This document shows positions 20,774-30,814 of a stretch of 64,000 bases of DNA, one piece after another (the first letter of the stretch is position 1; every line of letters begins with the position of its first letter). The notes under the pieces were generated by a model. It was not told the DNA's origin, did not search any database, and was given only the letters and a program-made list of their open reading frames with translations. Position numbers and translations under genes: made by a program. The DNA lies in contig JAJTXY010000001.1 in assembly GCA_021463865.1 (NCBI GenBank), positions 124,001-188,000 on the forward strand, given 5' to 3'. The DNA is from Anaerolineae bacterium (GTDB lineage: Bacteria; Chloroflexota; Anaerolineae; Aggregatilineales; J027).

Positions 20774-20929
20774 CTATTCATCATTATGCACATTTATGAT
20801 AAGTATCAGAAACGGCCCGCCTGACGACAAAATGAACTTGATCTACATAAAGAAGTGTGGAAAGTCACTTTAGGCGCTCCGGTCAGTTGGATAAAATGGG
20901 CATATCCGAATGCACTCAGGAGCCTAAAA

Positions 20930-22105
20930 ATGTCCTTCTCAAGAAGACGTTTTCTCGGCATGATGGGGGCAGGACTGCTATCAACACTTCCACTTCGCTC
21001 TCGTGCCGTTCATGCCAATTCTAAGTTGCCCCCTGTTCTAATTCATCATTTTGATCCAGCACAGACCGCTGTTAATGATGCGGTACGGTCAACCATGCTG
21101 ACTGCCACCGATATGTCTTGGTTAAAGGGTGGTCAGTCGGTGTTTGTGAAGGTCGCCAGTAATTCCTATTACGCTCCGCCCGCCGTGACTTCCCCAGCGG
21201 TCTTGAAGGGTGTGATTAATGTGTTATGGGAATATGGGGCAGGCCAAGTGTATGTCGGGGACATGAGTGGGGCGTATTTTGTGCGCCATCTGGCAACCCG
21301 CACCGATGGTTCGACACGCGGGGTCATGCAGACAAATGGCCTCTTACAAGCGGCAGAAGAAGCCGGGGCGACGGTACATTGTTTTGAGGAAGTACCTTTT
21401 GAAAGCGCCTATATTCCCGGTGTGCCTTCGGTCAGCAACCACAGTTGGGGCAATGAGTTGCAAGTTGCCGAAATCTTAGATCGGGTAGATCACATCGTCA
21501 ATCTGCCACGCCTCGGCAAACATGTGTTGGCGGGGGCAACCCTCGGATTAAAAAATGCGGTGGGCTACATTAGCGATCACAGCCGCATGGTGCTGCATCG
21601 TGACGCCGAAACCTTCCAGCAAAAAATCGCCGAAATTAACGCTATCCCTCAGCTTAAAGACAAAATGCGTCTCACCATGACTTTGGTAGATGTGGCGCTG
21701 ACGACTTTTGGCCCCGATCACGGCTATGATTTGAAGCTGGATACCCCGCTGATTGTCGCCTCCGAAGATATTGTTAATCATGACCAGATCGCCCTGCTGC
21801 TGCTGCTATGGGGACGCCAATTGACCCCCTCGTCTGAAATTGCCAATGATCCTTATTTCCAATCGGCAGATTATTACAACAAGAGTTTTGTGCAAGAGGT
21901 TTGGCAGCAATCGGCCCAAACCCTGCCTGTTTTTGAATCCCTAGAAGCGAACACCGCCATGACACACATCAATCTAGCCTATTATATTTTGCGTGGGGGA
22001 CGGCCTGCTGAAATTCGTGTGATCCCCACTGGTCTGCCGTTGGACGAACGATTGACCGCCATTTTGACCGGGCATCCTGAATTGAACATTGTGTTAGAGG
22101 GGTAG
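20930..22105 (+). CDS. DUF362 protein with Tat signal, first gene of cytochrome operon
   Basis: A 391-aa exported protein. The start SRRRFLGMMGAGLLSTLP is a twin-arginine signal, and twin-arginine substrates usually fold with a cofactor before export. The mature part matches DUF362 (FVKVASNSYYAPPAVTSPAVLKGVINVLWEYGA, then HIVNLPRLGKHVLAGATLGLKNAVGYI). No ferredoxin-type Cys cluster, seen in some DUF362 proteins, is present, so its cofactor is unknown. ATG at 20930 has CAGGAG upstream. The pentaheme cytochrome gene follows after four bases, tying it to the respiratory operon. Confidence 0.85.
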   Translation: MSFSRRRFLGMMGAGLLSTLPLRSRAVHANSKLPPVLIHHFDPAQTAVNDAVRSTMLTATDMSWLKGGQSVFVKVASNSYYAPPAVTSPAVLKGVINVLWEYGAGQVYVGDMSGAYFVRHLATRTDGSTRGVMQTNGLLQAAEEAGATVHCFEEVPFESAYIPGVPSVSNHSWGNELQVAEILDRVDHIVNLPRLGKHVLAGATLGLKNAVGYISDHSRMVLHRDAETFQQKIAEINAIPQLKDKMRLTMTLVDVALTTFGPDHGYDLKLDTPLIVASEDIVNHDQIALLLLLWGRQLTPSSEIANDPYFQSADYYNKSFVQEVWQQSAQTLPVFESLEANTAMTHINLAYYILRGGRPAEIRVIPTGLPLDERLTAILTGHPELNIVLEG

Positions 22106-22109
22106 CGCC

Positions 22110-23765
22110 GTGTTGCGTGTCAAATGGATGGCCCCCTTGTTGCTTGGTATGGGCTTGCTCATTATTGGGGTGGCGTGGGTATTTCTAAAACCCGAAAAGG
22201 TCGTGTTGACGGGCCAAGTCATGACCGAAGAGGGGCCTGCTGCGAATGCGGTGGTACGGGTACGCACCTCGGATACTTTTACCGTCACGGATGAAAATGG
22301 GCGCTTTGAATTAGAGACGAGTCCCTTTGATAAACCGATTAAGGTGACGGCGTGGTCGCTTGGGTATCTGACAGGCGAATCCGAAGTGAAACAGGCCGAT
22401 ACGCCCATTGCCATTACCTTAACTCGCTACACCACCACCGACAATCCGGATTATGCTTGGTTTTCGCATGAGGACACGACAGGTTCACTCGCCTGTTCCA
22501 ACTGTCATGTGTGTTACGACGAATGGTTAGGGGATGCTCATGCCCGATCCGCTGTGAATCCGCGAGTTTTAAGCCTCTATAATGGCACGGATTTGAACGG
22601 GACGAAAGGGGCAGCCACACTGTATGAATTTGATCGGGCAGCAGGCATTGAAATTCCCTTAGCGCCATCATTGGGACAAGATGGGGTAGGGGTGGGTTTC
22701 CGGCTCGATTATCCAGACTTAGGTGGCAATTGTGCGACCTGCCATGCCCCTGCCGCCGCTCTCAATGCCGAAAGCGCTTATCAGGTGAACATGAATACTC
22801 TTAATGGTATTGAAACCGAGGGTGTCTTCTGCGAATTTTGCCATAAAACGGGTGCCGTTACATTGAATCCCGAGACCAATACCCCCAATATCAATCTACC
22901 GGGGGTTTTGTCTATGCAGCTTTATCGCCCCCATGATGATGAACAGGTGTTTTTTGGTAATTTGGATGATGTACCCGAAGACGATACTTATCTCCCTTTG
23001 TTTGAGGAAAGTGCGTTTTGTGCCCCCTGTCATATCGGTAATTTCTGGGGAACGACGATCTATAATTCCTATGGAGAATGGTTAGCCAGCCCCTATAGTG
23101 ACCCCGAAAGCGGCAAAACCTGCCAAGACTGCCATATGCCACCTGTTGACTATGAATATTTTGTTTTTCAGGAAAGAGGCGGCCTCGCCCGTAATCCCGC
23201 AACGGTTTTCAGCCATCGAATGCCCGGTGCAGCCGACACGAACTTGCTGCAAAACACCGCCGAACTGGATGTGCAGGCTGTTTGCGAAAATGACCAACTC
23301 GCCGTAACGGTGGCAGTCACCAATACAGAGGCGGGGCATGATATTCCAACCGATAACCCTCTGCGTAATATGATCTTGGTCGTTAATGCGACCACCGCCG
23401 GTGGGCAGACATTGACCCTAAACGACGGGCCAACCATTCCCGAATGGGGCGGGGTGGGTGATCCTGAGCAGGGCTATTATGCCGGGTTGCCGGGGGTGCT
23501 ATATGCCAAAATTTTAGCAGATTTTTATACGGGCGAGATGCCTAGCCCGGCCTATTGGCGACAAACACGCATCGTGAGCGATAACCGGATTCATGCACTG
23601 GAAACTGACGAAACGCATTATCAATTTGACCTGCCCAATGGTGAGTGTGCTGCCATTGTAGATGTGCAACTCGTCTTGCGCCGGGCTTTCATTGACCTGA
23701 TGGATCAGAAAGCATGGGATACCCCCGACATGCTGATGGAACAGGTCACAGTGGAGGTACGATAA
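22110..23765 (+). CDS. Membrane-anchored pentaheme cytochrome c with carboxypeptidase-regulatory-like domain
   Basis: A 551-aa protein held by an N-terminal helix (about residues 8-25). Residues 31-106 form a carboxypeptidase-regulatory-like beta-sandwich (LTGQVMTEEGPAANAVVRV...DENGRFEL). Five CxxCH haem sites follow at residues 129 (CSNCH), 208 (CATCH), 241 (CEFCH), 304 (CAPCH) and 338 (CQDCH). The stretch CHVCYDEWLGDAHARSA resembles the cytochrome c554 type. The C-terminal 200 residues form a beta-rich domain without haem. It probably passes electrons outside the membrane; donor and acceptor are unknown. The start is GTG at 22110 behind a GAGGGG-like stretch. The next gene overlaps by one base. 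Confidence 0.88.
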   Translation: MLRVKWMAPLLLGMGLLIIGVAWVFLKPEKVVLTGQVMTEEGPAANAVVRVRTSDTFTVTDENGRFELETSPFDKPIKVTAWSLGYLTGESEVKQADTPIAITLTRYTTTDNPDYAWFSHEDTTGSLACSNCHVCYDEWLGDAHARSAVNPRVLSLYNGTDLNGTKGAATLYEFDRAAGIEIPLAPSLGQDGVGVGFRLDYPDLGGNCATCHAPAAALNAESAYQVNMNTLNGIETEGVFCEFCHKTGAVTLNPETNTPNINLPGVLSMQLYRPHDDEQVFFGNLDDVPEDDTYLPLFEESAFCAPCHIGNFWGTTIYNSYGEWLASPYSDPESGKTCQDCHMPPVDYEYFVFQERGGLARNPATVFSHRMPGAADTNLLQNTAELDVQAVCENDQLAVTVAVTNTEAGHDIPTDNPLRNMILVVNATTAGGQTLTLNDGPTIPEWGGVGDPEQGYYAGLPGVLYAKILADFYTGEMPSPAYWRQTRIVSDNRIHALETDETHYQFDLPNGECAAIVDVQLVLRRAFIDLMDQKAWDTPDMLMEQVTVEVR

Positions 23766-25612
23766 TGCAAAATCGTCTCACCCGGTTACTGGCAATCGTT
23801 ATTGTATTGGGCGTCGGCCTAATGCTGTTAGCGGCCTGTACCGATGATGCCACCCCCACCCGTCCGGTCTACCCAACCGATACCCATATTGCCACCCCTG
23901 TCCCTCTGATTCTGACCCCAATTGTCACCGAGCGCCCTTTGCCCGGTTTGCCGCCAATGCCTAATGCCCAGTCAAGCAAGATACTGGCTCAATACGGCAG
24001 CCGCTTGGTAACAGCCAACTCTGAAAGCGACAGCATTACCCTGCTCGAAGATGGGACAGTGCAAGCGGAGATTCTCGTGGGGGATGACCCACGCACCGTC
24101 GCCATTACCCCGGACGGCAAAACGGCATGGGTGACACTGCGCGGGGAAAACGCGGTGGCGATGGTAAATCTCGAAACGGCCCAGCGTGAAGCAGTCATTC
24201 CAATTGGGCACATGCCCTATGGGGTGGTGGTGGATGAGCGGCGGGCCTATATCACCTGCTTTGGTGATGGTCAGGTGGTCATCGTGGATTTGGCCTCCCA
24301 GACCATTTTGTATCAGGTCAAAGTGCCCGACTTCCCAACAGGACTGGCGCTGAGTGGGGAATGGTTGCTCGTCACCCATTTTTATACCGGGCAAGTCACC
24401 GCTCTAAATGTTCAGCGCACCCCTGTTATGATTGGTACGGTTACGGTGGATGTTGGGGGGACTATCGCGCAATCCGTCATCCTGCCACCGGATGGGACCC
24501 GGGCCTATTTGCCGATGACCCGCACCGGATTGTCGCTCATCTCGCTTCAATATATGCAAGATTGGTTTCCAATTGTTGCGATTCTTGATTTGGCGACCAT
24601 GCAGGCGGATCGGGATGGACGGTTGGCTCTGTCGAGCGTCGAAGGCAATAATATGCCATTTGATGCTGCGTTTACCGCCGATGGAAAATCCCTGCTGGTG
24701 GTTCTGGCGGGGAGCGATACGGTGCTAGTGGTGGATTCTGCTACCGGAGCAATTCAGCGGCGCATTGCAGTGGGGGCGAATCCGCGCGGGATTTTGATTC
24801 AAGGTGATCAAGCGGTTGTCGCAAACGCGCTGGATGGCACACTGTCGGTGATTGATTTGGATACCTATGCTGTGACCAACCACATCGTAGTCACCGAAAT
24901 CCCACTGCCTCCCGAAATTCTGCGGGGCGCGGTTCTTTTTAATAGCGCCGAATTGCCGGTGATGAGCGACGGGGCGGTGAGTTGTGCGACGTGTCATTTT
25001 GACGGCGGCTGCGATCAACGGACATGGATTAATTTCCGCAGCGGCCCACGCAATACACTGGCGCTGGGTGGGGCGGCTAATTTGCCTCCCTACAATTGGG
25101 CAGGCGAAATGGCGGAACTTCAGGACACCATTGAAGACCATATTCGCATGGTGATGCTGGGGGATGGTTTAGTACGCGGTGACTTCGACCCCCTGATTGA
25201 TCGCATAGATGCAGGGCGCTCGTCAGATTTGGATGCGCTGGTGGCCTACGTATCCACCTTTGAGGCTTGGCAAAGCCCCTATCGTAATCCGGATGGGACG
25301 CTGACTGAATCGGCCCAACGTGGAATGCGGATTTTTATGAGTGGTTCGCCGGGGTGTAGTTGCCATTTGCCGCCGTTGTACACCGATCAACAACAGCACG
25401 ACCTTGCCAACACTACCTTTTCATTAGAGTCATATGGGGCATTTGACACCCCATCTTTATATGGACTGTGGGCAACCGCTCCCTATTTACATGACGGGGT
25501 TGTGATGACGCTGGAAGAACTGCTGACACGCACTGACCCGGTACACAGTGTTGCCGACGACCTAACGCCGCAACAACTCATTGATCTCATCTCATTTTTG
25601 AAATCTCTGTAA
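23765..25612 (+). CDS. Lipoprotein: YVTN-type beta-propeller fused to di-haem cytochrome c (MauG/CCP-like)
   Basis: A 615-aa lipoprotein (signal ending LLAAC, Cys25). Residues about 60-370 are a seven-bladed propeller of YVTN/YncE type (TVAITPDGKTAWVTLRGENAVAMVNLET). The C-terminal part resembles di-haem cytochrome c peroxidase/MauG relatives: LFNSAELPV..GAVSCATCHFDGGC with a normal haem site at residue 407. Later comes FMSGSPGCSCHLPP, followed by FDTPSLYGLWATAPYLHDGVV. The second site is CxCH (residues 531-534), one residue short of a normal haem motif. Its start overlaps the previous stop (TAATG), so the genes are translationally coupled. Role unknown. Confidence 0.86.
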   Translation: MQNRLTRLLAIVIVLGVGLMLLAACTDDATPTRPVYPTDTHIATPVPLILTPIVTERPLPGLPPMPNAQSSKILAQYGSRLVTANSESDSITLLEDGTVQAEILVGDDPRTVAITPDGKTAWVTLRGENAVAMVNLETAQREAVIPIGHMPYGVVVDERRAYITCFGDGQVVIVDLASQTILYQVKVPDFPTGLALSGEWLLVTHFYTGQVTALNVQRTPVMIGTVTVDVGGTIAQSVILPPDGTRAYLPMTRTGLSLISLQYMQDWFPIVAILDLATMQADRDGRLALSSVEGNNMPFDAAFTADGKSLLVVLAGSDTVLVVDSATGAIQRRIAVGANPRGILIQGDQAVVANALDGTLSVIDLDTYAVTNHIVVTEIPLPPEILRGAVLFNSAELPVMSDGAVSCATCHFDGGCDQRTWINFRSGPRNTLALGGAANLPPYNWAGEMAELQDTIEDHIRMVMLGDGLVRGDFDPLIDRIDAGRSSDLDALVAYVSTFEAWQSPYRNPDGTLTESAQRGMRIFMSGSPGCSCHLPPLYTDQQQHDLANTTFSLESYGAFDTPSLYGLWATAPYLHDGVVMTLEELLTRTDPVHSVADDLTPQQLIDLISFLKSL

Positions 25613-25622
25613 GGACAGCCCT

Positions 25623-27734
25623 ATGAAACGAGCCTTACTTATTATCGTGCTACTTCTCCTCAGTGTGATGCCACTCTCCGCACAAACGGGTTCCCCGACA
25701 GGCGGACAGCCATGGGACTTACGTTATACCGAACAGCGCGGCGAATTTGTGTTTTATGACCTGCCAGCCGGGGCATCCACCACAGGCAAGCCCGTAGATA
25801 TGGGCGACTTTGATGGAAACGGCTGTGGCGACATTGCCATCACCGGGCAAAATTCCTCCCATCCGTTAGGCGAATGGCGCGGCAGTGTGGGGCACGTGCG
25901 CGTTCTTATGAATGTCTGCCAGATTGCGGGTCGGATGCCTGTTGACCAAACCATTTCGGGCCAGAATTTTTTCACCATCTTTGGGGCTTATGCGGGTGAT
26001 ATGGCGGGGACGGAGACTTACGTGGCAGATTTTAATGCTGATGGGTATGACGATTTGCTGCTGACCGCCCAAAACAATGACGGACTGAATCAAAATATGT
26101 CGAATGCGGGCGCGGCGTATGTGCTGTTTGGAAATCCCAACATAGCCTCGCGCACCGATATTGATTTGTTAAACCCACCCGCCGACGTCATCGCTTTTTA
26201 TGGGGCCTATGCCGAAGATCGTCTAGGGCTGTGGGTCGAGGGTGGCGATTTCGATGGGGATGGCTTTCATGATTTGCTGATTGGGGCGAATCAAGCAGAT
26301 GGCGTTGATAACAGCCGGAGCAACGCGGGTGAGGTGTGGGTCATTTATGGCGCGGCGGATATGGTGGGCAAGTACGGTCAATTTACGGATTTGAGTAACC
26401 CGCCAAGCGATGCGACCCGCATCATCGGTGTGGATTTCGATGATTTGCTTGGTTCGTGTGTCTGGGGAGATGATTTCGACGGTGACGGTATGGATGATAT
26501 TGTGGCGGGGGCAGGTTTATGGCGAGCCTCTAGCGGCGTCGGCGGATTATCTTTTGGCGGGGGGGATGGCCCAGCCAATACCCGTTACAACGCGGGTGAG
26601 GCTTATGTCATTTTTGGGACGCCGGGCCTCAAGGGGCAAACGATTGACTTGGCGACCCTATTGGATGAATTCGGAGCGCCAATTGATGAGCGTATCACGG
26701 TGATCTATGGGGCGAACTCAAATGACCTGATCGGCGAAGAAATTGCAGCGGGCGACATGGATGGGGATGGACGCAAAGACCTTATCCTCGGCACGCTGGT
26801 TGGCGACGGGGCGGACAACAATCTCGATGAGGCAGGCGAGGCATGGATTATCTATACCCATGATCGGTTTCGTGGCAAGATGTTTGACCTTGCCGATGTA
26901 GACCCCGCCCGTGCCGTTGTGATTTACCCCGATCAAGCCGATGGTAAAGCCGGGGACACTTTACGTGCCGGGGATTTGGATAGAGACGGCGTGGATGACT
27001 TGTTTTATGGCGCACCCGATTACGACCCGATTGGGTATTCGGGGCAGATGCGCCCTAACGCGGGATTGATGGCAGTCATTTTTGGTCAAATAGGTGGCCT
27101 CCCCAACGATAATGGACGCATTATGCTGTTTAGCCCTCCGGCGGGCCTGCGCGTGAAGTACATCATCGGGGCGGATGATAATGACATGATGCCCTACGCG
27201 ATGGCGCTGGGTGATCTGGATGGCGATGGTGTGCTTGACATTATCCCGAATGCGATGGGCGGGGATGGCTCGAATAACGATCAAATCAATGCGGGCGAAA
27301 TCTATGCCATTAGTGGGGCGGAATTTTTGTCGCCTAATCATGTCTATACAGGGGCTGGCCCAGAACCTACCCCAACCATCATCCCCACTCAACTGCCAAC
27401 CAATACGCCCGTTGAGGGTTCGCCGCTGGCGGTTTCTACAACAGGGGATTGGATGGCGGGTAAAGGCTATTATGATGAAACCTGCGCGGGGTGTCATGGC
27501 TCGCAGGGCGAAGGTATTGAGGGGTTAGGATTGCGCTTGGTGGATTCGCCGCTCATTATGTATGCCTCGGATTTGGAATTGATTATGTTCCTGCGGGTGG
27601 GCCGTCCAGCTGACCATCCCGATAACACGTTGGGGGTTTCGATGCCTCCGAGTGGGGGTCGCCCCGATTGGAGCAATGAAATTTTTATGGACATCATCGC
27701 TTATTTGCGGTATCTGCGTGATGAAGTGCAATAG
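25623..27734 (+). CDS. Secreted FG-GAP (integrin-type) propeller fused to monohaem cytochrome c
   Basis: A 703-aa exported protein with a signal peptide (1-20). Seven FG-GAP repeats bear Ca-binding D.DGDG.DD loops: DFDGNGCGDI, DFNADGYDDL, DFDGDGFHDL, DFDGDGMDDI, DMDGDGRKDL, DLDRDGVDDL and DLDGDGVLDI. This is a full seven-bladed propeller. After a TPTIIPTQ linker the C-terminal 110 residues are a class I cytochrome c: CAGCHGSQGEG (Cys621) with a likely axial Met in SMPPSGG. This fusion is unusual. The gene lies 10 bases after the previous stop and 13 before cytochrome b. Confidence 0.9.
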   Translation: MKRALLIIVLLLLSVMPLSAQTGSPTGGQPWDLRYTEQRGEFVFYDLPAGASTTGKPVDMGDFDGNGCGDIAITGQNSSHPLGEWRGSVGHVRVLMNVCQIAGRMPVDQTISGQNFFTIFGAYAGDMAGTETYVADFNADGYDDLLLTAQNNDGLNQNMSNAGAAYVLFGNPNIASRTDIDLLNPPADVIAFYGAYAEDRLGLWVEGGDFDGDGFHDLLIGANQADGVDNSRSNAGEVWVIYGAADMVGKYGQFTDLSNPPSDATRIIGVDFDDLLGSCVWGDDFDGDGMDDIVAGAGLWRASSGVGGLSFGGGDGPANTRYNAGEAYVIFGTPGLKGQTIDLATLLDEFGAPIDERITVIYGANSNDLIGEEIAAGDMDGDGRKDLILGTLVGDGADNNLDEAGEAWIIYTHDRFRGKMFDLADVDPARAVVIYPDQADGKAGDTLRAGDLDRDGVDDLFYGAPDYDPIGYSGQMRPNAGLMAVIFGQIGGLPNDNGRIMLFSPPAGLRVKYIIGADDNDMMPYAMALGDLDGDGVLDIIPNAMGGDGSNNDQINAGEIYAISGAEFLSPNHVYTGAGPEPTPTIIPTQLPTNTPVEGSPLAVSTTGDWMAGKGYYDETCAGCHGSQGEGIEGLGLRLVDSPLIMYASDLELIMFLRVGRPADHPDNTLGVSMPPSGGRPDWSNEIFMDIIAYLRYLRDEVQ

Positions 27735-27747
27735 TTAAAGAACGCAT

Positions 27748-29073
27748 ATGGCACAGTCTCAACCCAATTTTGTTCACCGAGTACGCCGCTCCATTCGCCG
27801 CCAAACCTTTTGGGGTGAAACTGATCGTGAGCGAATGCGTCTTGTCACCAGCGATTTAATTCTGCATCTGCACCCCCAGACGGTTCCGGCGGCGGCCCTG
27901 CGATGGACATATACCTTTGGATTAGGCGGCCTAGCAATTTTGCTGCTGCCTATCATGATTGTCACGGGTATTTTGTTGATGTTTTCGTATACCCCCTCAA
28001 CTGATGCCGCCTATACCAGCATCCTCAATTTGGAACAGTATATCTGGTTCGGGCAGTTGATTCGTAATCTGCATCATTGGAGTGCCAATTTGCTGCTGGT
28101 GGTGACAGTGCTGCATTTGTTGCGGGTGTTGTATACCGGGGCGTTCCATAAACCGCGTGAATTTAACTGGCAAATTGGTTTGATGTTGTTAGGGCTGGTA
28201 GTGGCCGCCAATTTTACGGGGTATCTCCTGCCGTGGGATCAGTTGGGCTATTGGGCGGTGACGGTGGTGACCAGCCTGATTGATTCCATCCCACTGATTG
28301 GCCCGGATTTACGGGTTTGGCTATTGGGCGGCGATCAAGTTAATGAAAATACGCTGCATAATTTTTATGTGCTGCATATTATGTTGATTCCACTGGGCTT
28401 ACTACTGGCTACCTCGTTTCATATTTGGCGCGTTCGCAAAGATGGCATCAGTATTCCCCGCAATTTAAACGATGACCAGATTTTTACCGAGAAACGCACC
28501 ACCATTCCGCATCTCATCAGCCGCGAATTTATTTTTGGCCTGCTGATGGTGGCTTTGCTGCTGGCATGGGCTACTTGGGTGGATGCGCCATTGGGTGCGA
28601 GTGCTAATCCAAATCAACCGCCGAATCCGACCAAAACGGCGTGGTATTTTATGGGGCTTCAGGAATTTCTGCTGCATGTTTACCCCTCCGTCGCGGGGAT
28701 CGCCATTTTGGGCCTGCTAATTATTGCCTTGCTGCTGCTGCCCTACTGGTACGACACTAGCGATTCGACAGGCATATGGTTTCGCAGCCGTCGTGCCCGA
28801 TGGATTTGTGCGGTGAGTGTGCCTGTTGGGGTGGGGATTGCGCTTACTAGCATTTTACTCACCGAAATTTCGACTAGCAGCGGGGTGATGCCTTTAGTCG
28901 CAGCGTTGCTATTGGTGGGGGGGTATTGGTGGTTACTCCGTCATCGCGGGACCGAAGCGGGCGAAATCCGTTTGGCGCTTTTTACGCTGATACTCACCAT
29001 TTTCGTGACCTTCACCGTCATCGGGATTGGTTTTCGTGGGGAAGGTATGACATTGAGAGGCCCTTGGGCATGA
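27748..29073 (+). CDS. Cytochrome b of a bc-type complex (fused b6 + subunit IV)
   Basis: Quinol-oxidising, haem-b-bearing membrane subunit of 441 aa. First haem-ligand pair: NLHHWSANLLLVVTVLH (spacing 14). Second pair: VLHIMLIPLGLLLATSFH (spacing 15, as in b6-type proteins). The Qo-site region appears as PNPTKTAWYFMGLQEFLLH in the subunit-IV-like half, so both halves are in one chain. Eight or more membrane helices are visible. The Rieske gene follows with a 4-base ATGA overlap. It is the energy-conserving core of the operon. Confidence 0.95.
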   Translation: MAQSQPNFVHRVRRSIRRQTFWGETDRERMRLVTSDLILHLHPQTVPAAALRWTYTFGLGGLAILLLPIMIVTGILLMFSYTPSTDAAYTSILNLEQYIWFGQLIRNLHHWSANLLLVVTVLHLLRVLYTGAFHKPREFNWQIGLMLLGLVVAANFTGYLLPWDQLGYWAVTVVTSLIDSIPLIGPDLRVWLLGGDQVNENTLHNFYVLHIMLIPLGLLLATSFHIWRVRKDGISIPRNLNDDQIFTEKRTTIPHLISREFIFGLLMVALLLAWATWVDAPLGASANPNQPPNPTKTAWYFMGLQEFLLHVYPSVAGIAILGLLIIALLLLPYWYDTSDSTGIWFRSRRARWICAVSVPVGVGIALTSILLTEISTSSGVMPLVAALLLVGGYWWLLRHRGTEAGEIRLALFTLILTIFVTFTVIGIGFRGEGMTLRGPWA

Positions 29074-29543
29074 AACGACGCGATTTTTTGGTGACGATCT
29101 GGCAAGGTATCGGTGTGTTAGCCACTGGCGGAATGGGTTTTATTGGGCTGCGCTATTTAGCTTCGCAGAATCGGGAATCCACTACCGGTGGCGTTGTCAC
29201 CGCCGGGTTGGTGGATAATTTTGCACCCGGTACGGTGACGCCTATCCCCGAAGGTAAATGTTATCTCGTGCGGAACTCAACCGGGGGCTTTTTGGCGCTC
29301 TATCGCCAGTGTACCCACCTGAGTTGTATTGTGATCTGGGAGGAAGGCCAATTCCGCTGCCCCTGTCATGGCTCGGTTTTTACATCAGACGGCAAGGTCA
29401 TCTCTCCCCCCGCACCCCATCCCCTAACGGCGCTTGAAGTGCAGATCGAAAATGGACAGGTGCGGATTGATACTGGCAAACAAATCAAACGTACCAAAAC
29501 GACTGCTGAAGATTTCACCTATCCCCCGGAGCAATCAGTGTGA
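29070..29543 (+). CDS. Rieske [2Fe-2S] protein
   Basis: A 157-aa iron-sulfur subunit that takes the first electron from quinol and hands it to a cytochrome c. An N-terminal MKRRDFL segment (Tat-like, with a helix that stays as membrane anchor, about 10-30) precedes the cluster motifs CTHLSC (81-86; usual CTHLGC) and CPCHGS (97-102). The PAPHPL segment that closes the fold follows. It overlaps cytochrome b by four bases and the tetrahaem cytochrome by four bases. Confidence 0.95.
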   Translation: MKRRDFLVTIWQGIGVLATGGMGFIGLRYLASQNRESTTGGVVTAGLVDNFAPGTVTPIPEGKCYLVRNSTGGFLALYRQCTHLSCIVIWEEGQFRCPCHGSVFTSDGKVISPPAPHPLTALEVQIENGQVRIDTGKQIKRTKTTAEDFTYPPEQSV

Positions 29544-30814
29544 CTCGCTCAATGAAATGGCTCGGACTGCTGGCAACTGTCGGGATTTTGGTGCTACTGG
29601 CCTTTAATATTTGGCGCGAACCGACCCGACGAACTGAAGCGCAGGCGGCGTATCGTGCCACCGCGATTGCCGAGGGGACAACGCTTTATGCCTTATACTG
29701 TGCGGAATGTCACGGCGCGGCGGGTGAGGGCCTCAATAACTATCCGTCCCTCGATCAAGCCTTTCTCCGTCAACAGGATGTCGAAGTGCTGTATAAACTC
29801 GTATCGCGTGGGCATCAAGGTACGGACATGGCGGCGTTTGGTTTGCAAGAGGGGGGACTACTCAATCGAGCACAAATTGAAAGTATCATTGCGGTGATTC
29901 AGCACGGCTCATGGGCAGAAACCTCGCAGTATGTGTTTGCCGCTGGTTTTCAGCCTGCCGCTTCAGTGGGGGATTCTACTGATTTTCAAGCTGTGTATGC
30001 CGCTGCCAATAATGACCCGAACACGACCCTAAGCACAGGGCGGACGCTTTTTGCCAGCGTGTGCGTCGAGTGTCACGGGGCCAATGGGGAAGGTACGGCG
30101 GATGCCCCTATGCTAAACAGCGTTTATGTGCAAAGCATGTCCGCCGACCAACTGTTGAGCATTATCAATTTTGGGGTATCGGGTACCAAAATGGATACCT
30201 TCCGCGAGCGATTCTCATTGGAGGAGAAAGCCGCACTCATCTACCTTTTGCAACATTGGAATGGAGCGACGGTGGTGGTTGCTCCAACTCCTACGATTGA
30301 TACCAGCGGCGTCACCGTCAGCGGGCAGGTCTTATTTGAAAAATGGTGTGCCCCCTGTCACGGAGTACGAGGTGAGGGTGGGTCTATCGCACCCCAGTTG
30401 AATGATGTGCCGCCGCTTCCCACTGAATTTATCATGACCCGTGTCCGCACAGGCAAAAATGCCATGCCGCCTTTCCCTCTGACCGATTTGCCCGACCCTG
30501 AATTAATGGTGCTGATTGAGTATGCCCAATCGAACATCTTTGGTTCGAGCCTGCCTGTGCTTACAGAGGCCGAACTAGCCAATGCTGCCACCTTGTATCA
30601 GCAGCAGTGCGCGGAATGTCATGGAATGCAGGCTGAGGGCACGGCGGAACAGGGGCCACCATTGATCAAGACGCCACCCCTCCATGCCAATTATATTGTT
30701 TATTTCACCCGTTTTGGATCGGCGAACACCCCCGGCATTCCGGCCAGTACGGTCTCTGATGCTGACTTGCAGTTGATTGTGGCGTATCTGCATAGTCTGG
30801 GTATTCACAAGTGA
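29540..30814 (+). CDS. Membrane-anchored tetrahaem cytochrome c (four class I domains)
   Basis: A 424-aa protein with an N-terminal anchor (residues 6-24) and four tandem cytochrome c domains: CAECHGAAGEG (54), CVECHGANGEG (175), CAPCHGVRGEG (270) and CAECHGMQAEG (357). Likely axial Met ligands include GTDMAAF, GTKMDTF and KNAMPPF. In the third-subunit position of a bc complex it should accept electrons from the Rieske centre and pass them along a chain of haems. The start is GTG at 29540 overlapping the Rieske stop; ATG at 29552 is possible. It is the last gene of the operon, and no terminator hairpin is evident before the convergent kinase gene. Confidence 0.92.
   Translation: MTRSMKWLGLLATVGILVLLAFNIWREPTRRTEAQAAYRATAIAEGTTLYALYCAECHGAAGEGLNNYPSLDQAFLRQQDVEVLYKLVSRGHQGTDMAAFGLQEGGLLNRAQIESIIAVIQHGSWAETSQYVFAAGFQPAASVGDSTDFQAVYAAANNDPNTTLSTGRTLFASVCVECHGANGEGTADAPMLNSVYVQSMSADQLLSIINFGVSGTKMDTFRERFSLEEKAALIYLLQHWNGATVVVAPTPTIDTSGVTVSGQVLFEKWCAPCHGVRGEGGSIAPQLNDVPPLPTEFIMTRVRTGKNAMPPFPLTDLPDPELMVLIEYAQSNIFGSSLPVLTEAELANAATLYQQQCAECHGMQAEGTAEQGPPLIKTPPLHANYIVYFTRFGSANTPGIPASTVSDADLQLIVAYLHSLGIHK

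Follow-up and report, generated by a model that had tools for sequence, protein, structure and literature searches.

Results

A two-module locus in Anaerolineae

A bc-type complex with a specialised tetrahaem c subunit is joined, in an Anaerolineae genome and in several of its relatives, to a module of haem-bearing propeller proteins, and sequence comparison indicates that this join is conserved and does not result from chance. The genes (Table 1) were found in what we call the window, a stretch of 64,000 nucleotides (contig JAJTXY010000001.1, positions 124,001 to 188,000). Seven of them, all on the plus strand, occupy positions 20930-30814 and encode, in this order, a DUF362 protein, a pentahaem cytochrome, a YVTN-dihaem protein, an FG-GAP-c protein, cytochrome b, a Rieske protein and a tetrahaem cytochrome. 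The tight packing noticed in the preliminary description was borne out: going from 5´ to 3´, the genes are separated by a gap of 4, an overlap of 1, gaps of 10 and 13 and two overlaps of 4 nt, and Pfam recognises DUF362, FG-GAP, cytochrome b, Rieske and four cytochrome c domains. Judged by sequence, chance is far from sufficient to account for this layout: other genera have a matching set of genes, with identities of about 50-70%.

Table 1. Features of the seven-gene locus, with positions in the window
Feature	Position	Strand	Evidence and remarks
DUF362 protein, twin-arginine motif, variable accessory	20930..22105	+	PF04015, 109.9 bits; 391 aa
Pentahaem cytochrome	22110..23765	+	five CXXCH; N-terminal anchor, carboxypeptidase-regulatory-like domain, C-terminal beta-sandwich
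YVTN propeller with CcP/MauG/hydrazine-synthase-gamma-like dihaem domain, candidate catalytic subunit	23765..25612	+	NF052342; 5c2v chains B, C
Contracted second haem motif SPGCSCH (C-x-C-H for C-x-x-C-H)	25346..25366	+	both Cys and the His invariant in alignment
Propeller of FG-GAP (integrin-like) repeats, monohaem cytochrome c at the C-terminus	25623..27734	+	PF01839, 101.9 bits; CXXCH at aa 621
Cytochrome b, a single chain of 441 aa comprising the N- and C-terminal parts	27748..29073	+	PF00033, 163 bits; PF00032
Rieske iron-sulfur protein, CTHLSC...CPCHGS	29070..29543	+	PF00355, 40.4 bits, over cut-off
Tetrahaem c subunit with an N-terminal anchor, the form that marks the linked system	29540..30814	+	four CXXCH

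The number of c-type haem motifs, given earlier as about 11, needs a qualification. Eleven canonical CXXCH motifs were indeed counted (five in the pentahaem protein, one in the YVTN protein, one in FG-GAP-c and four in the tetrahaem subunit), but the YVTN protein carries just one of them, together with a contracted C-S-C-H at its second site. The flanks of the locus are ordinary, a PAP2 phosphatase upstream (Pfam) and a minus-strand kinase/WD40 protein downstream (read from its translation). None of the seven genes gave a Pfam match to an NrfD-like membrane subunit, the mark of alternative complex III.

Members of Anaerolineae are menaquinone users with a single membrane. The genome harbouring the window (4.9 Mb, 97% complete) contains one haem-copper oxidase locus and, elsewhere, a second bc complex with Ccm-type maturation genes, the latter read from translations. 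Three molybdopterin hits correspond to a formate dehydrogenase, a protein resembling formate dehydrogenase or assimilatory nitrate reductase, and an enzyme of NuoG type. In these searches, which covered haem-copper oxidases and molybdopterin enzymes, the one terminal acceptor to appear was oxygen, and others are possible.

The bc trio

The last three genes had been taken for a core of the quinol:cytochrome c reductase type, and their motifs agree with that assignment. Both His pairs of cytochrome b, 14 and 15 apart (LHHW...LH and LHNFYVLH...FH), are aligned in all linked proteins, a Rieske protein follows, and the adjacent c subunit has four CXXCH. Cytochrome b and the c subunit match solved subunits of bc1/b6f complexes, and the tetrahaem protein matches QcrC. 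The trio resembles known bc complexes (bc1/b6f and actinobacterial QcrABC) in cytochrome b with two His pairs, the Rieske protein and an anchored multihaem c, and differs from them in its tetrahaem c, in TAWY standing for PEWY and in the linkage to propeller cytochromes. The acidic PEWY/PDWY form of the Qo motif, which is typical although not obligatory in every lineage, is absent here. An acid is lacking at this place throughout the clade (xAWY/xPWY), as well as in the other bc complex of the same genome (TAPWY); the acid-less motif was also seen in locus L090.

Phylogenetic analysis placed all tetrahaem proteins in one branch (SH-aLRT 98), while every other homologue has at most three motifs. 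The linked b subunits lie within a branch of 11 rows, likewise with SH-aLRT 98, which also holds three unlinked ones.

Conservation of the join between the modules

We divided the locus into module A (cytochrome b, Rieske and multihaem c) and module B (DUF362, pentahaem c, YVTN-dihaem lipoprotein and FG-GAP-c). Module A is widespread and its c subunit is normally trihaem: automatic calls in 20 loci of the class gave 18 trihaem proteins, one dihaem match and one single-haem match, and the order b-Rieske-c is kept in the class loci compared. In most relatives the trio and the upstream four genes lie apart. Module B was found without module A in complete form at five loci (L023, L071, L101, L117 and L178) and in partial form at L021. 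In the single-contig genome G342, which possesses the upstream four genes, a search at E <= 1e-80 gave no member of this cytochrome b clade, so that dependence between the modules is one-way at most and electrons of module B can come from elsewhere.

The tetrahaem form is present in nine of 154 genomes of the order (Aggregatilineales-like, Anaerolineae); these nine carriers belong to four genera in two families and show two gene orders. All nine carriers have cytochrome b and a haem-bearing FG-GAP gene on the same contig, contig ends being reached in two of the nine loci. YVTN orthologues occur in 18 of the 154 genomes, and their co-occurrence with the tetrahaem form gives a Fisher p of 5.7e-8 when genomes are counted and of 0.004 when genera are counted, the genomes being related by ancestry and hence not independent.

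All seven genes are colinear in five genomes of one genus, that of the window. In G334 (L177), FG-GAP, b, Rieske and tetrahaem genes are colinear and FG-GAP is cut by the contig end. In G325, one contig (L194) carries DUF362, pentahaem and YVTN genes and ends in FG-GAP at residue 223; another (L193) resumes at residue 275 and continues with b, Rieske and tetrahaem genes. Because FG-GAP is split over two contigs, the seven-gene order is inferred there. G317 and G322 (L099 and L097) show the other arrangement, with the b-Rieske pair divergent and the tetrahaem gene after FG-GAP. In at least three tetrahaem carriers (G002, G317 and G334), a trihaem trio of the standard kind is present as well, at another place in the genome.

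A search of the neighbourhood across Chloroflexota had been proposed as a check on whether the trio alone is conserved, the upstream four genes being unrelated to it. Such a picture did not emerge, for the coupling extends beyond the genus in two gene orders. The idea of one coupled seven-gene system stands in this respect, but it has to be loosened in another: the system is modular, and DUF362 or the pentahaem gene is sometimes missing.

The YVTN-dihaem protein and its contracted motif

The preliminary description of this protein as a YVTN propeller/di-haem lipoprotein holds in part. A lipobox-like LAAC is visible by eye at the N-terminus, the YVTN part was modelled as a propeller of about 27 strands, and the first haem site is a CXXCH at aa 407 (C407-H411), invariant in the alignment along with W445. 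The term di-haem is uncertain because the second motif is CxCH. The structure model of the dihaem domain is poor, with pLDDT mostly below 50, too low to use. Of 22 proteins compared, 15 have C-x-C-H at the second site, namely that of the window and 14 relatives from several genera, whose contracted form is, by the tree, compatible with one origin; the homologues at L097 and L099 have CXXCH. A search of the open-licence literature gave no account of a natural haem motif of the CxCH kind, which does not prove its absence.

Among solved structures, this protein is best matched by a YVTN surface-layer propeller and by the beta and gamma subunits of hydrazine synthase (5c2v chains B and C). The NCBIfam model for the beta-gamma fusion, NF052342, gave 99.6 bits, far below its cut-off of 1250. 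In CcP-type enzymes, the second haem site feeds the catalytic haem. Dihaem CcP, MauG and MbnH have in common with the YVTN protein the first CXXCH, the conserved Trp and a C-terminal PYxH(D/N)G stretch; the window protein differs by its N-terminal propeller and by the contracted second motif, which replaces CXXCH at that place.

A seven-bladed YVTN propeller and a two-haem CcP-like domain likewise make up the beta-gamma part of hydrazine synthase and the homologues of it that occur outside anammox bacteria. These homologues adjoin FG-GAP genes and have Trp replacing His144 (PMC12758564). Compared to hydrazine synthase gamma, the window protein also has Trp (W445) in place of His144 and no equivalent of Cys165, which forms the third covalent haem bond; compared to beta-gamma as a whole, it differs in the CxCH at the second site and in the linkage of its gene to the bc trio. 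The HZS-alpha profile PF18582 gave zero matches in the window genome, and the control genomes also gave zero.

The FG-GAP-c protein

Calcium-type motifs recur in the FG-GAP protein every 73-93 residues or so; six were found by pattern and a seventh, DDFDGDG, by eye. Two seven-bladed propellers with haem domains had been expected in the locus, and this count is consistent with seven blades in FG-GAP-c. In a scan of GTDB r220, strong homologues of FG-GAP-c were confined to Chloroflexota, those named (L093-L117) all being Chloroflexota MAGs, several of them labelled Aggregatilineales or Anaerolineae. The next-best matches were generic FG-GAP proteins of other phyla with about 25-35% identity. Judging by isolate names, the relatives presumably come from reactor, groundwater and marine sources. 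Close FG-GAP homologues devoid of the C-terminal haem domain occur in other gene contexts (L110, L111 and L116).

DUF362 and the pentahaem cytochrome

Putative export of the DUF362 protein by the Tat pathway, proposed earlier, agrees with a twin-arginine motif (SRRRFL) recognised by eye. An alternative GTG start is possible at 20855. Searches for solved relatives and for PHROG matches of this protein returned none. The gene is missing from the divergent locus L099, and L195 contains DUF362 paired with a haem-bearing FG-GAP gene, with neither YVTN nor pentahaem genes.

The predicted structure of the pentahaem protein (pLDDT 86) has as its nearest solved fold 5ze8, pentahaem cytochrome c552 (Foldseek E 6.9e-16). 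The two were superimposed over 336 residues with VIA (Z 23.4, rmsd 3.2), with 24% identity over the aligned region; other VIA matches mainly concern the N-terminal and beta-sandwich domains. Profile search matched the protein to 5ze8 (E 7.3e-11) and to MccSep (9wt9), with no family-wide curated cut-off to apply, and a search of open-licence papers on MccSep yielded nothing relevant. A pentahaem family around ExtKL has been described, and for cytochromes of the ExtKL type a part in the conduction of cable bacteria is under discussion (PMC11976967). With Thermochromatium c552 (5ze8), Geobacter ExtKL and the PHC of cable bacteria, the window protein has five CXXCH in common, and its fold is that of 5ze8; it differs from all of them by an extra N-terminal carboxypeptidase-regulatory-like domain.

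The pentahaem gene is present in 46 of 249 genomes of the class and is missing from L097. At four loci (L026, L080, L081 and L084) it lies inside an ABC-transporter operon of the peptide type, with the permease genes on one side and the ATPase genes on the other. Near the pentahaem genes of L028, L082 and L085 lies a gene for a protein of about 1000-1300 aa, c23, with no NCBIfam match and in Pfam at most a carboxypeptidase-regulatory-like domain. It was tried as an equivalent of HZS-alpha and gave no match.

Discussion

The preferred reading of the locus, to which we assign a probability of roughly 45%, is a specialised bc-type menaquinol:cytochrome c oxidoreductase dedicated to a surface redox module and feeding a dihaem reductase that possibly reduces peroxide. 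Menaquinol would be oxidised at the outer Qo site, and electrons would pass through the Rieske protein to tetrahaem c, then to the FG-GAP-linked monohaem, serving docking and relay, and finally to the dihaem YVTN lipoprotein. The latter would be a terminal reductase of CcP/MauG type acting at its first haem, its likely substrate being peroxide or another small oxidised compound. The pentahaem protein could be an additional relay or a second reductase. We infer both the direction of electrons and the substrate from this arrangement. Several points count against a dedicated reductase: module B also exists without module A, the second site is a non-standard CxCH and may hold no haem, the model of the dihaem domain is poor, and the Qo motif lacks its acid, though this is common to the clade and to the other bc complex of the genome. 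A fuller claim, that a dedicated bc complex supplies an undescribed, quinol-driven respiratory reductase at the surface whose propeller-borne dihaem enzyme binds its second haem on a naturally contracted CxCH, we consider doubtful.

Other explanations have to be weighed against the dedicated reductase. The flow might be reversed, the dihaem/pentahaem propeller module oxidising an external compound and passing electrons by way of tetrahaem c to a haem-copper oxidase, with the bc complex merely sharing the c subunit. MauG-type dihaem proteins can serve as oxidases, the genome has a haem-copper oxidase locus and module B is found without the trio; yet such a pathway needs no dedicated b/Rieske pair, the linked b subunits lie in a distinct branch and the cluster contains no known substrate oxidase, so we regard it as unlikely. 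A similarly low chance is given to extracellular electron transfer or metalloid reduction in the manner of Geobacter ExtKL-OPQS, surface propellers taking the place of an outer-membrane conduit. The extHIJKLMNOPQS cluster of Geobacter brings together pentahaem, Rieske, cytochrome b and four-haem c proteins (PMC5877670), a make-up close to that of our locus; among NCBIfam models the b subunit scores best against ExtP, the pentahaem protein shows weak matches to MccSep and to the ExtKL model, and the conduction discussed for its ExtKL-type relatives in cable bacteria would fit. Nevertheless, all NCBIfam equivalog cut-offs are missed (ExtP 264.8/290, ExtKL 52.6/250 and ExtS 29.6/100 bits), ExtM/ExtN-like genes with 10-12 haems and a porin are absent from the cluster, and the number of haems is modest. 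Unlike the Geobacter cluster, the window locus has no porin, rhodanese or 10/12-haem cytochromes, carries two propeller cytochromes instead, and has its b parts fused in one chain. We also considered similarity to ExtP as a specific trait of the linked system and rejected it, because unlinked trihaem trios score equally.

Two further explanations appear far less probable. In most relatives the modules are separate, which would suit an ordinary bc trio standing beside an unrelated surface-protein operon through history alone; this reading is disfavoured, to the point of being very improbable, by the association of tetrahaem forms with FG-GAP and cytochrome b in nine of nine cases, across four genera and two gene orders, and by a haem number of the c subunit that has changed along with linkage. 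The dihaem domain could also be degenerate, CxCH binding no haem, with propellers used for docking, sensing or adhesion and the haems purely structural or a relay. The lack of a described natural c-type CxCH in the open-licence literature speaks for this, whereas CxCH has retained its His and its two Cys in 15 proteins belonging to several genera, unlike a decaying site, and neither W445 nor the first haem site varies; we hold it to be highly unlikely.

The accessory set was at first not recognised as anything known. Its parts are recognisable, having relatives in hydrazine synthase beta-gamma and CcP, in pentahaem cytochromes and in the association with FG-GAP genes, and their union with a tetrahaem bc complex dedicated to them seems to be undescribed in the open-licence literature. 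The electron outlet itself is probably an undescribed one, in a group of uncultured Chloroflexota. If the dedicated reductase is real, these bacteria would possess, besides oxygen, a further outlet for electrons, one that goes unnoticed in current annotation, and a bc complex would have become specialised for one partner set. Hydrazine-synthase-like dihaem propellers and their FG-GAP neighbours would then be extended to a respiratory context, and the contracted CxCH offers a natural test of the minimum length of a c-type haem motif.
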